Source of the DNA: SAR202 cluster bacterium Io17-Chloro-G6 | GTDB taxonomy: Bacteria; Chloroflexota; Dehalococcoidia; UBA3495 | Reading direction: 5' to 3' | Assembly: GCA_002816585.1 (NCBI GenBank) | Contig: MUCT01000003.1 | Span: 21,363 to 85,362 of the forward strand | DNA: 64,000 nt | In this document: positions 1 to 3,340 of the stretch, piece after piece | Numbering within the stretch: position 1 is the stretch's first letter | Layout of the letters: the number at the start of each line of letters is the position of its first letter | The notes under the pieces: generated by a model | Told to the model about the DNA's origin: nothing | What the model saw: the letters and a program-made list of their open reading frames with translations, nothing else | Database searches by the model: none | Made by a program: the position numbers and the translations under genes

Positions 1-1184
1 TGGTCTGAGCCATCAACGTCACCGAAGATAAACAAGTCCAACCCCACGATCGTTCGTACGCTCCCCATAGGGTCGATGTCCGCCGAGCGCACGGAACTGG
101 TCTCGCTATCAGCGAAGAACAATTTGACGCCATCAGTGGTGATACCGCAGGGCTGAGCCAACTCAGCCGTGCCCAATGGACCGTCGGTGAGGGACTCCCG
201 CCCGTTGCCGGCGAAGGGCCTGGCCATCCCCGTATCCAAATCGAGAGACCATAGTTGGTGGATGCCGGCCATGGCGATGTAGATAACCCCATCGTGGTGT
301 AACAGGTCGAATGGGGAGCAGAGTTCCATGGTCCGAGCGGGACGCCGGCCTTCTCTGGTGTGGCCCTGTTCACCGGTTCCCGCGATGGTCTCGACAGTGC
401 CGGCGGCCAGGTCCACCTTGCGGATAGCGTGGTTCCCCGTATCAGCCACATAGAGGGTTTCGCCATCCAGCGCGACGCCCTGAGGGTGGTTGAAGGCGCA
501 ATCCGCGAAGCCGCCATCGGCCAGATCCTCATCCCCGCTGCCTATCACCTCTTTTACGGCTCCGCTCAGCGAGGAAATCACGATGCGGTTGTGATTGGTG
601 TCGGCGATGAACAGGCGGTCTCCCGGACCATCGGCCAGCACTTTGCCTGGAAAGTTGAGTCCGGTGTCTTCAGTTTTCTGAAAAGTCGATGGGCGCGGTG
701 TATGGTCCAAAATACCCTGGGCGTCGAACTCGGTCACCATTTGGCTAATCAGCCCATCGAATGCCTCGAAGGTCATCTCTCCTTCGTGCTTACCGATGAC
801 ATTGCCCAGAGGGTCGATGAACATCAGCGTGGGCCAAGCCCGGCAGGAGTATTGCTGCCACACCTGGAATTCGGAATCGTTGATCACTGGGTGTTCTAGC
901 TGGTAGCGGCGGACGGCATTGTGCAGGTTGCCAGTGTCCTTCTCATTGGGGAACTTTGCCGAATGAACGCCGACCACGGCCAAATCCCTGGCGTACTTCT
1001 TTTCCAGTTTCCGCAACTGCGGAAATATATGGGCGCAGTTGATTCAACAGTAGGTCCAGAAGTCCAGTATCACGATCTTTCCTTTCAGGGCCTGCATTGT
1101 TGGTGGCAGGTCTGTATTGATCCACTCGAGGCCCTCGGGGAATTCGGGCGCGGCTAGCTTGCCGGCAAACGATTGGCTGCTCAT
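1..1184 (-). CDS. Thioredoxin-like/NHL-repeat protein (NHLRC2-like), candidate selenoprotein, 3' end outside the window
   Basis: Reading from an ATG at 1184, preceded by a GGAGG ribosome-binding site at 5-nt spacing, the frame runs open to the window edge (about 394 codons) except for one TGA at 1046-1044 (codon 47). Residues about 35-150 form a thioredoxin-like domain with LDFWTYC, then the TGA, then INCAH. Bacterial and animal NHLRC2 relatives have TYCCINC here, so the TGA sits exactly on the second redox cysteine. The fold continues with a [12 protein letters not shown] segment. From about residue 170 NHL beta-propeller repeats follow ([26 protein letters not shown], an AGTG repeat link). 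No frameshift or second stop occurs in nearly 1.2 kb. Family members are presumed thiol-disulfide oxidoreductases. I infer that UGA is read as selenocysteine. The alternative is a pseudogene with a single nonsense mutation or a base error. A conventional start-to-stop gene call would miss this gene. Confidence 0.85.
1008..1046 (-). promoter_or_regulatory. Candidate selenocysteine insertion site: in-frame UGA plus bacterial SECIS-like hairpin
   Basis: On the minus strand the UGA (1046-1044) is followed after 18 nt by the stem UUUCCGC (1025-1019), the apical loop AGUU (1018-1015) and GCGGAAA (1014-1008), a perfect 7-bp stem. Bacterial SECIS elements are generally expected to place a small apical loop about 16-37 nt after the UGA, with a G among the first loop bases. 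Here the loop begins 26 nt after the UGA and its second base is G, followed by U. A competing 8-bp hairpin (CAACUGCG with CGCAGUUG) begins only 2 nt after the UGA. It has no G in its loop and fits the rules less well. Whether SelB recognises this hairpin cannot be told from sequence. Confidence 0.65.
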
Positions 1185-1273
1185 GACGCCTCCGGAATGT
1201 TCAACCGGCCGGCGGCCCAATCATGAGACTACCGGCCGGAAATACGGGTCTAACGGTAATGAGGTTGGTTCGA

Positions 1274-1798
1274 TTATGCGCCTGGAGCCGGCTCAATTGC
1301 CAGCGTTGCGTAGCGCATGAATATGGATCCCACGGGTGCGCCTAGAGGAGCGTTGGCCACCAGAACGGCGATTACGTGCTCCGTGCCTGGCACCGCCGGG
1401 TCTTCGATCAGAATGCGCTTGGGTGTGTTGTTGCCGGTTACCACCCACTTGTCCCGGTCGATGTTACCGTCGACGTAAACTTCGCCGTAGTTGTCCACAT
1501 TGGTCTCGAACCAGACCCGGCCTCCGGCGACTTTCTCGCCCTTGACCTCGGCGGGAATGGTGATCTTGATGCGGTACCAGGCGAAAGTGAAACCAACGGA
1601 GCGGCGCTTCTGAATATCTGAGTCCTTCTCCCAGCCGGAATCATCGTAGTCGGCCAGCCGGGCCGGGCTATCCCCCATCTCGGCGACCAAGCCCTGATTG
1701 GACTCCCCGGGAACTATCCCAGGGGCGATCCTCCAGCCGGTGGTTTTAACGACCGCGAGGTCGGCGGGCACTTCCAGGTCCAATGCTACGCGGGGCAT
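1274..1798 (-). CDS. Beta-sandwich (galactose-binding-like) protein of unknown function
   Basis: The 174-residue protein has no signal peptide or membrane segment. Its centre (FAWYRIKITIPAEV, GGRVWFETNVDNYGEVYVDG) resembles the jelly-roll sugar-binding domain at the N-terminus of glycoside hydrolase family 2 enzymes, where a tryptophan-tyrosine-arginine strand precedes the strand carrying the DNYGEVYVDG turn. No catalytic glycosidase domain follows. The gene ends a minus-strand series with two dienelactone hydrolases, 25 bp downstream of the first of them, so co-transcription is likely. I see the fold resemblance only; substrate and role are unknown. Confidence 0.65.
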   Translation of the reverse strand: MPRVALDLEVPADLAVVKTTGWRIAPGIVPGESNQGLVAEMGDSPARLADYDDSGWEKDSDIQKRRSVGFTFAWYRIKITIPAEVKGEKVAGGRVWFETNVDNYGEVYVDGNIDRDKWVVTGNNTPKRILIEDPAVPGTEHVIAVLVANAPLGAPVGSIFMRYATLAIEPAPGA

Positions 1799-1823: not shown

Positions 1824-2576
1824 TCATATACAGGGCGGTTCGTCGGCGTTGGAAGTCAGCGCTCTCTTTAGGTGCTTATCGAAGAAGTCCAATGTGCGCG
1901 GCCAGGACATCTCCGCCGCCGCCCTCTGGTACCGTGGCGGATTGGCCGGGTTCATGAAAGCGTGATTGGCTCCCGGATAGGTGTAGAACTGGTGCGGAAC
2001 GCTGTTCTTGGACAACTCAGTATCCAGCGTCAACATGTCCTCTTGGGACGGGTTCTCGTCGATCTCCCCAAAGTGGAACAACACCGGGCACTTGATCCCT
2101 GATGTGAATGCGAAGGGAGCCTGGGTAGCGCTGCCCCAGGGGACCATAATGTTGCCACCGTAGTAGGGCACGGCGGCCTTGACCATGGGGTTGGTGGCGG
2201 CCGCCAGCCAGGTGACCCGGCCTCCCATGCAGAACCCGGTAACGCCAATGCGTTCAGAGTCCACAGAGGAGTGGCCGGTGAGGAAATCCACCGTTGCCGC
2301 GATGTCGTCGATGATCTCCGGGTCGCTCAATTGGTCCCGCTTGGACTTGCCGGAGCTCTCCACCATCTCGTCGGTGATCCGGTGAAACAAGTCGGGAGCC
2401 ACGGCGGCGTAGCCCGCGCCGGCCAATTTATCGGTAATGTCCTGGATGAACTTGTCCACGCCGCTGGCATGCTGGGCGACCACCACAGCCGGAAAGGGGC
2501 CGGAGCCGTCGGGAACACTGACGTAGACATCCATCTCGGACCCGTTCGCTGGCAATTTTTCCCAAAATGACGGCAT
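1824..2576 (-). CDS. Dienelactone hydrolase family protein (copy 1)
   Basis: This is an alpha/beta hydrolase of 250 residues, the usual length for the dienelactone hydrolase family, which opens lactone or ester bonds with a Cys-Asp-His triad. The nucleophile lies in GVTGFCMGGR (Cys116), the acid in FHFGEIDENPS (Asp173) and the histidine in PGANHAFMNP (His205). No signal peptide is present, so it should be cytoplasmic. An AGAGAGGGG-type purine-rich stretch precedes the ATG. A paralogue (2612-3340) lies 35 bp upstream on the same strand with the same motifs, indicating tandem duplication followed by divergence. The true substrate is unknown; carboxymethylenebutenolide turnover would be the textbook role, but most family members have other or unknown substrates. 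Confidence 0.9.
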   Translation of the reverse strand: MPSFWEKLPANGSEMDVYVSVPDGSGPFPAVVVAQHASGVDKFIQDITDKLAGAGYAAVAPDLFHRITDEMVESSGKSKRDQLSDPEIIDDIAATVDFLTGHSSVDSERIGVTGFCMGGRVTWLAAATNPMVKAAVPYYGGNIMVPWGSATQAPFAFTSGIKCPVLFHFGEIDENPSQEDMLTLDTELSKNSVPHQFYTYPGANHAFMNPANPPRYQRAAAEMSWPRTLDFFDKHLKRALTSNADEPPCI

Positions 2577-2611
2577 ATGGCCCCTCTCTGGTCTGATGTG
2601 AATAGGTAAGG

Positions 2612-3340
2612 TTAGGCAGAAACGGCGGCGCCCTTCAGGTGCTTGTCAAAGAAGTCGACAGTCCTGGGCCAGGCCTGGTTGGCCGACGCCTCATGGTGGC
2701 GTTCGGGGTTGGTAAAGTCCATGAACGCGTGGTTTGCGCCTTCGTAGGTGAAGAATTCATGGGGTTTACCCAGGCGGGTAAGCTCTGCGTCGAATTTGAC
2801 TTTGTCATCCGGGGAAGGATTGCCGTCCAAGGAGCCAAAGTGGAAGAGCATCGGGCAGTTGATGTTGGCGGCCATCGAGAAGGGTGTGTCTCCGGGACCC
2901 CAGTTGCCCATGATATTGCCGCCGTAGAAAGGCACGGTGCATTTGAAGATGGGGTTGGTGGCGGCCATCAACCAGGCGATGCGCCCGCCCATGCAAAAAC
3001 CGGTGACGCCGATACCGTCATTGTCGATGGCGGAGTTGGCGGTAAGAAAATCCACTGCGGCGTTCATGTCGGCGATGATATCGGCATCTCTCAGGTGCCC
3101 GAGGCGGTCCAATCGCGGCCCGTCCATCACTTCCTGGCTAAAGCGGTGGAACAAGTCCGGCACCACAGCCACGTATCCCGCTTCGGCCAATCGGTCGGCG
3201 ATAGCTTTATCAAAATCGTCCAGCCCGCCTACATGGAAAGCAATCACGACGGCTGGATGGGGCCCCGAGCCTGAGGGAAGAGCGGCGTACATGTCCATCT
3301 CGCTGCCGCCCACGGTCAGCTTGTCAGTGAAACTAGGCAT
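2612..3340 (-). CDS. Dienelactone hydrolase family protein (copy 2)
   Basis: The 242-residue protein is a paralogue of the downstream neighbour at 1824-2576. It starts with the same MPSF and keeps the triad: Cys116 in GVTGFCMGGR, Asp172 in FHFGSLDGNPS and His204 in EGANHAFMDF. An AGGTGA ribosome-binding site precedes the ATG. The copies share architecture across their whole length but differ in the loop around residues 65-85, which lines the active-site entrance in this family, so different substrates are plausible. It probably shares a transcript with the other hydrolase and the beta-sandwich protein. The link to the aminotransferase gene 77 bp upstream is weaker. Confidence 0.9.
   Translation of the reverse strand: MPSFTDKLTVGGSEMDMYAALPSGSGPHPAVVIAFHVGGLDDFDKAIADRLAEAGYVAVVPDLFHRFSQEVMDGPRLDRLGHLRDADIIADMNAAVDFLTANSAIDNDGIGVTGFCMGGRIAWLMAATNPIFKCTVPFYGGNIMGNWGPGDTPFSMAANINCPMLFHFGSLDGNPSPDDKVKFDAELTRLGKPHEFFTYEGANHAFMDFTNPERHHEASANQAWPRTVDFFDKHLKGAAVSA

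Follow-up and report, generated by a model that had tools for sequence, protein, structure and literature searches.

A very probable selenocysteine-containing thioredoxin/NHL-propeller protein of the NHLRC2/SOQ1 type in SAR202 and other Chloroflexota

In this work, we present a gene at the edge of a 64,000-nucleotide stretch of DNA from the SAR202 cluster bacterium Io17-Chloro-G6 (the window, by which we mean the whole stretch analysed). In all likelihood it encodes a selenocysteine (Sec)-containing thioredoxin/NHL-propeller protein of the NHLRC2/SOQ1 type, in which Sec47 would be specified through a SECIS element and form part of a UxxC motif. The computational support comprises a conserved TGA, selection that continues across it, a covarying hairpin, co-occurrence of the Sec machinery in relatives, a Cys form without hairpin and SelA, and the fold; from these we infer that Sec is actually inserted. 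A Sec-containing protein of this type is very probable and, in the open-access literature searched, unreported.

Translation of the minus strand over 1-1184 gives 394 codons with a single stop, a TGA at codon 47, bearing out the preliminary description of this DNA, which had pointed to one in-frame TGA in an open frame of about 394 codons. The frame is open up to the window edge, and the 3′ end of the gene lies beyond it. The features of the gene are:

1..1184, minus strand: putative Sec-containing thioredoxin/NHL-propeller gene, 394 codons (translation, Pfam, solved relatives, fold of homologue L001)
1044..1046, minus strand (1046-1044): in-frame TGA, codon 47, taken as Sec (homologue alignment)
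1035..1037, minus strand: Cys50 codon, specifying the last position of the UxxC motif (Cys in 111/111 Chloroflexota TGA genes; aligns with the second CxxC Cys of DipZ)
1189..1193, minus strand: GGAGG ribosome-binding site, preceding the ATG start at 1184-1182

Pfam matched the read-through protein to Thioredoxin_8 and NHL, and seven NCBIfam models matched it, none of the seven at its curated cut-off. The best solved relatives by sequence were plant SOQ1 (7djj, E 8.1e-108) and human NHLRC2 (6gc1, E 2.5e-95). Together with the fold of L001, the nearest full-length relative (506 aa), these indicate that the NHLRC2/SOQ1 arrangement is present, with a Thioredoxin_8-type domain followed by an NHL propeller. 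Relative to human NHLRC2 (PDB 6gc1) and the lumenal domains of plant SOQ1 (PDB 7djj, 7djk), the window protein would carry Sec for the second Cys of CCINC. Its residues 46-50 read CUINC, the CCINC motif with one Cys as Sec, and homologues indeed align Cys to codon 47, where the TGA had been proposed to take the place of the second Cys. Pro118 of a WPT motif, invariant in 26 aligned members, aligns with the active-site proline of NHLRC2, which is described as cis in the part of the structural report covered here (PMC6107167). The L001 homologue ends after the propeller, whereas NHLRC2 has a further C-terminal beta-stranded domain, which the same part of that report describes as non-conserved (PMC6107167).

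A TGA at codon 47 was found in 117 rows in total, 111 from Chloroflexota (window included) and six from Planctomycetota. The first of these came from a scan of species genomes in which the best 80 loci were kept, with more existing: codon 47 was TGA in 14 and TGC or TGT in 66. All 14 TGA loci were from Chloroflexi/Chloroflexota, SAR202 or Dehalococcoidia, at 62-84% identity, and one of the 66 Cys loci (L072) was also a Chloroflexote. A draw of 393 genomes from the class of locus L010 contained the gene in 94, with one TGA in 44 and none in 50. Mapping these 44, the 49 without TGA whose match reached the site, and the first 14 loci gave 107 loci with TGA in 58, TGC in 47 and TGT in two at codon 47; L010 and L121 are one place, so the 58 TGA rows represent 57 further distinct loci. 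Among 400 genomes drawn from the whole phylum, the gene was present in 82, with one TGA in 58 and none in 24. Among these 24, the match in one genome (G615) stops short of codon 47, and the TGA form is the majority in this Chloroflexota draw, at 58 of the 81 copies whose match covers the codon. All 53 TGA loci that this draw newly contributed have their TGA at codon 47.

Outside this phylum, judged on the best match region per genome (E ≤1e-60), the gene was found in 39 of 396 genomes of Acidobacteriota (the phylum of L016), in none of them in the TGA form, and in one of 16 genomes of the phylum of L015, without TGA. Planctomycetota (the phylum of L027) had the gene in 101 of 392 genomes (102 matches), with one TGA in six, in each case at codon 47 (L299-L304). 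A further planctomycetotal locus, L305, has Ser (AGT) at residue 47, giving TYCSINC. Outside these, 65 loci from other or unnamed phyla encode Cys at the codon, consistent with the earlier statement that Cys is the usual residue in NHLRC2-like proteins. TGA and Cys codons thus alternate at codon 47. Over the aligned stretch the TGA is the single stop in each TGA row, so that no further stop was seen in the genes of relatives, where other lesions had been named as an outcome that would count against the proposal. Chance or a read error does not account for the TGA, as the same codon is TGA in 110 further Chloroflexota and six Planctomycetota loci.

Comparison of the residues around codon 47 bears on how the putative Sec would work. 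The preliminary description had taken a vicinal Cys46-Sec47 pair as the hallmark of the protein, and this has to be amended. Residue 46 is Cys in the window and in 90 of the 111 Chloroflexota TGA proteins, as a vicinal catalytic pair would have it, but Ala in 19 and Gly in two, and among the 56 Chloroflexota Cys genes 44 have Gly there, whereas Cys50 is invariant in both the TGA proteins (111/111) and the Cys genes. Because Cys46 varies and Cys50 does not, the motif is best read as UxxC, in which Sec occupies the place of the first Cys in a thioredoxin CxxC. The C-terminal domain of DipZ (PDB 2hyx) and ResA/TlpA-like thioredoxins share the thioredoxin-like fold with CxxC. The SCINC of DipZ aligns to CUINC of the window, with the Ser of DipZ opposite Cys46, the first Cys of its CxxC opposite Sec47 and the second opposite Cys50. 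DipZ-type proteins differ in having Cys rather than Sec and no aligned NHL propeller. We therefore consider a selenoprotein whose catalytic pair is Cys46-Sec47 rather than Sec47-Cys50 to be unlikely; on this alignment Cys46 is dispensable, and where kept it could have a helper role.

Whether the codon is translated at all can be judged from the sequences on either side of it. In 16 hand-chosen pairs of TGA genes, the part ahead of the TGA showed 0.079 nonsynonymous and 0.486 synonymous differences per site, and the part behind it 0.080 and 0.512, respectively. Selection is equal on both sides, which indicates that the codon is read through. A pseudogene or read error is ruled out by this equality together with the TGA at one codon in 117 rows. 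An alternative in which the TGA is a true stop, with a propeller-bearing protein made from a downstream start and the first 46 codons as leader or remnant, finds some encouragement in the databases: the best 120 listed of 7999 proteins cover 82-88% of the query, all eight that were retrieved start downstream of the TGA, and a TTG start is available at 1016. Yet the codons ahead of the TGA experience the same purifying selection as those behind it, the Cys homologues read straight through, translation begun downstream of the TGA would truncate the thioredoxin domain ahead of its active-site helix (as judged from the fold of the L001 homologue), and the hairpin just downstream would be left unexplained. 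We regard this alternative as very improbable. Three proteins of the listed database set (P0026, P0028 and P0042, within P0002-P0121) carry the name alkyl hydroperoxide reductase.

If the codon is read as Sec, a SECIS element would be expected downstream, and a candidate is present:

1008..1025, minus strand: bacterial SECIS-like hairpin, stem 1025-1019 with 1014-1008, loop AGUU at 1018-1015 (fold, pairing, covariation, synonymous constraint)

The hairpin spans positions 22-39 counted from the U of UGA, has a 7-bp stem and lies inside the coding sequence, starting 18 nt after the UGA codon with its AGUU loop at 25 nt. In the window, the 51-nt fold has an energy of -10.9 kcal/mol (z -1.52), and 18 of 200 shuffles were as stable, so that fold stability alone is weak evidence for a SECIS. 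The published bSECIS model (PMC13188914) gives, in the part covered here, a loop of 3-9 nt with G in one of the first two places, a stem of 4-16 bp, a distance of 16-37 nt from the UGA and an energy ≤ -7.5 kcal/mol; with a stem of 7, a loop of AGUU, a distance of 25 nt and its fold energy, the window hairpin lies within all these limits. An energy of ≤ -7.5 kcal/mol was reached in 111/111 Chloroflexota TGA genes. The minimum-energy fold of the 51 nt lacked the stem in the expected register in 21 of the 111, a count that includes shifted registers of the same hairpin.

Conservation of the hairpin is visible in both codon choice and pairing. In the 58 TGA genes of the first mapping (window included), codons +8 to +11 (P, Q, L, R) are CCG, CAG, TTG and CGG wherever the residue is kept; Gln is kept in 57 of the 58 rows and replaced by Arg (CGG) in the other. 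TTG makes up 16% of the Leu codons in these genes, and elsewhere in the gene a single codon reaches 95% in none of the 119 columns scored. Across the 54 distinct rows among them, 98.7% of stem cells are paired, the lowest pair being C-G in 35, U-A in 17 and U-G in two. Pairing and the covariation score both exceeded all 500 shuffles, and neither the number of pairs with a change on both sides nor that of further pair types exceeded the shuffles in this set. In the larger set of 100 distinct rows from the 111 Chloroflexota TGA genes there are 22 distinct stems, with 673 of 700 cells paired and 44 double changes, against maxima of 643 and 22, respectively, in 2000 shuffles. The loop is AGUU in 95 rows, CGUU in four and GGUU in one, hence NGUU in 100/100.

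A hairpin scan that required at least seven pairs, tolerated a single mismatch and applied the loop rules from the literature matched 107/111 Chloroflexota TGA genes, as compared with 7/56 Chloroflexota non-TGA genes and 7/65 genes of other or unnamed phyla. Of the Planctomycetota TGA genes, two of six reached seven pairs (L303 and L304), the best-scoring hairpin of L304 being different from the AGTT-loop hairpin seen by eye; the other four (L299-L302) are without a clear strict hairpin. A competing pairing around the loop is possible, between the Asn-Cys codons (AACUGC) and GCAGUU (window 1008-1043), and might regulate the hairpin; no inference is drawn from it, as its 5′ half is fixed by the Asn-Cys codons, which the Cys genes share.

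The preliminary description had made its proposal depend on Sec machinery in the genome, and in relatives this expectation was largely but not wholly borne out. The window itself contains two tRNAs, neither of them tRNA-Sec. Of the 14 nearest TGA genomes from the first scan, SelD was over cut-off in 14/14, each with one in-frame TGA, SelB in 11/14, SelA in 10/14 and tRNA-Sec (above 60 bits) in 10/14; SelA was not found in four of them, and two (G002 and G003) had SelD only. The limit of 60 bits was set by us because the tRNA-Sec model RF01852 gave low-scoring matches in 14/14 control genomes, five of them over cut-off; SelB-like matches likewise occurred in all control genomes, two over cut-off. 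By eye, the SelD loci (L161-L174) show a hairpin GGACCT-GGTCC-AGGTCC, or close to it, after their TGA, with the loop about 26 nt downstream.

In the wider sample, 110 of the 116 TGA genomes had SelA, as did 55 of the 69 non-TGA genomes with a known codon. By sample, the TGA genomes with SelA comprised 44/44 of the class draw (counting one fragment below cut-off, in G378), 9/13 of the others of the first scan, 52/53 of the phylum draw and 5/6 Planctomycetota; G027 and G615, with matches short of codon 47, and the duplicates G010/L121 and L143 were left out. The association between SelA and TGA gave a Fisher p of 0.0025 pooled and 0.00027 in the class draw, values that ignore kinship and assembly completeness. 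Against the Sec reading stand the six of 116 TGA genomes in which SelA was not found and the two of the 14 nearest with SelD only. At the level of sequence, the reading is nonetheless strongly supported by the exchange of TGA and Cys, the machinery in relatives, the absence of any other stop and the covarying SECIS-like hairpin. The residue inserted cannot be named by computation alone, but that UGA is read as some other amino acid, through genome-wide recoding or a suppressor tRNA, is scarcely credible, given that TGA is exchanged for Cys codons among homologues, requires a hairpin of the SECIS kind, accompanies SelA, and is the ordinary end both of the neighbouring gene 1824-2576 and of 39/100 TGA-bearing genes with a complete end. 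The last count shows that UGA is not generally recoded and rules out genome-wide recoding.

Under the Sec reading, UGA at codon 47 would be decoded by SelA, SelB, SelD and tRNA-Sec, directed by the SECIS hairpin within the coding sequence. Sec would thereby stand where a thioredoxin CxxC has its first Cys, the nucleophile, giving U47-I-N-C50. An oxidised substrate may sit in the cleft between the thioredoxin domain and the propeller, where the selenolate would attack it, and Cys50 would then resolve the selenenyl-sulfide. Sec at this position would be expected to raise redox reactivity, as had been suggested. We count against this reading that human NHLRC2 is described as being without insulin-reductase activity in the part of its structural report covered here (PMC6107167).

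The distribution of the two forms suggests how they are related. A first tree of 127 proteins, built by a quick method with the codon-47 site excluded and with an outgroup that did not fall on one branch side (four rows lay on the wrong side), placed all 58 TGA rows within a single starred group, which has 64 members. The six with Cys comprise a four-row clade, L125 and the long-branched L237. L125 (genome G179) has TGC inside a TGA clade, broken hairpin pairs and no SelA match, and is likely a natural Sec-to-Cys revertant. The four-row clade (L072 and L144-L146; G022, G303, G358 and G242) is from genomes that keep SelA, so that loss of the machinery is not the sole route to Cys; here Sec was either replaced or never gained, with the machinery retained. 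A wider quick tree (177 rows, LG+G4, 70/174 inner branches weak) comprised the window, 29 of the 57 Chloroflexota TGA loci of the first mapping, 11 class Cys loci, all 66 of L015-L080 and all 70 of a later fetch, among them 53 Chloroflexota and six Planctomycetota TGA loci. Four Planctomycetota TGA genes grouped with 37 non-TGA rows in a starred set of 41 that was separate from the Chloroflexota TGA genes, whereas L303 and L304 fell among these Chloroflexota genes without strong support. This placement suggests a second gain of Sec and perhaps also a transfer between phyla.

With regard to previous work, the catalogue of May 2026 lists 119 prokaryotic selenoprotein families and subfamilies (PMC13188914, Table 1). 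Its UxxC selenoproteins of the thioredoxin fold (Trx, Prx-like thiol:disulfide oxidoreductase, thiol-disulfide isomerase-like and redoxin family) resemble the window protein in having Sec at the first CxxC position and a SECIS downstream. Neither these nor any other of the 119 entries bears the name of an NHL-propeller protein or is assigned to that architecture, a comparison by table entry in which a broadly named entry may overlap. The text of that paper is without the term 'NHL', as are PMC9312934 and PMC1088965. In the open-access literature we found no report of SAR202 selenoproteins or of selenoproteins with an NHL repeat, matches for the latter being on other subjects by title, and NHLRC2 and selenocysteine occurred together where both are only named as fold templates (portion of PMC7479077 covered). 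This agrees with the preliminary description, which knew of no established Sec-containing protein of the NHLRC2 type.

NHLRC2 is an essential human protein, associated with FINCA disease, and is suggested in the part of PMC6107167 covered not to perform thiol-disulfide exchange. For the thioredoxin-like domain of SOQ1, the corresponding part of PMC10173003 states in one place that redox activity 'remains to be determined' and cites redox transduction in its discussion. That nature has Sec in place of one Cys argues strongly for redox chemistry at this position and singles out the residue on which tests should focus. We lean towards, with rather less confidence than in the protein itself, a broader picture of a common, uncatalogued selenoprotein family with Sec as the majority form in Chloroflexota, reversions to Cys (one accompanied by the loss of both hairpin and SelA), an independent second gain in Planctomycetota, perhaps a transfer between the two phyla, and Cys90 of human NHLRC2 as the family's redox nucleophile, SOQ1 included. 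If true, this role of Cys90 would follow from evolution having put Sec in the first Cys position of that motif, CxxC. The findings add a putative two-domain selenoprotein family, which occurs in SAR202/Dehalococcoidia and other Chloroflexota and is represented in databases by truncated copies, and the natural series of Sec forms, Cys revertants and Ala46 or Gly46 forms offers a ready panel for mechanism.

The surroundings of the gene are partly conserved among the related loci:

1274..1798, minus strand: 174-aa gene with no Pfam family, directly upstream
1824..3340, minus strand: two dienelactone-hydrolase-family genes, 1824-2576 and 2612-3340 (Pfam DLH)

Of 14 related loci, all but L013 retain the 174-aa gene, and at least one of the dienelactone-hydrolase-family genes was matched in 11 of the 14.
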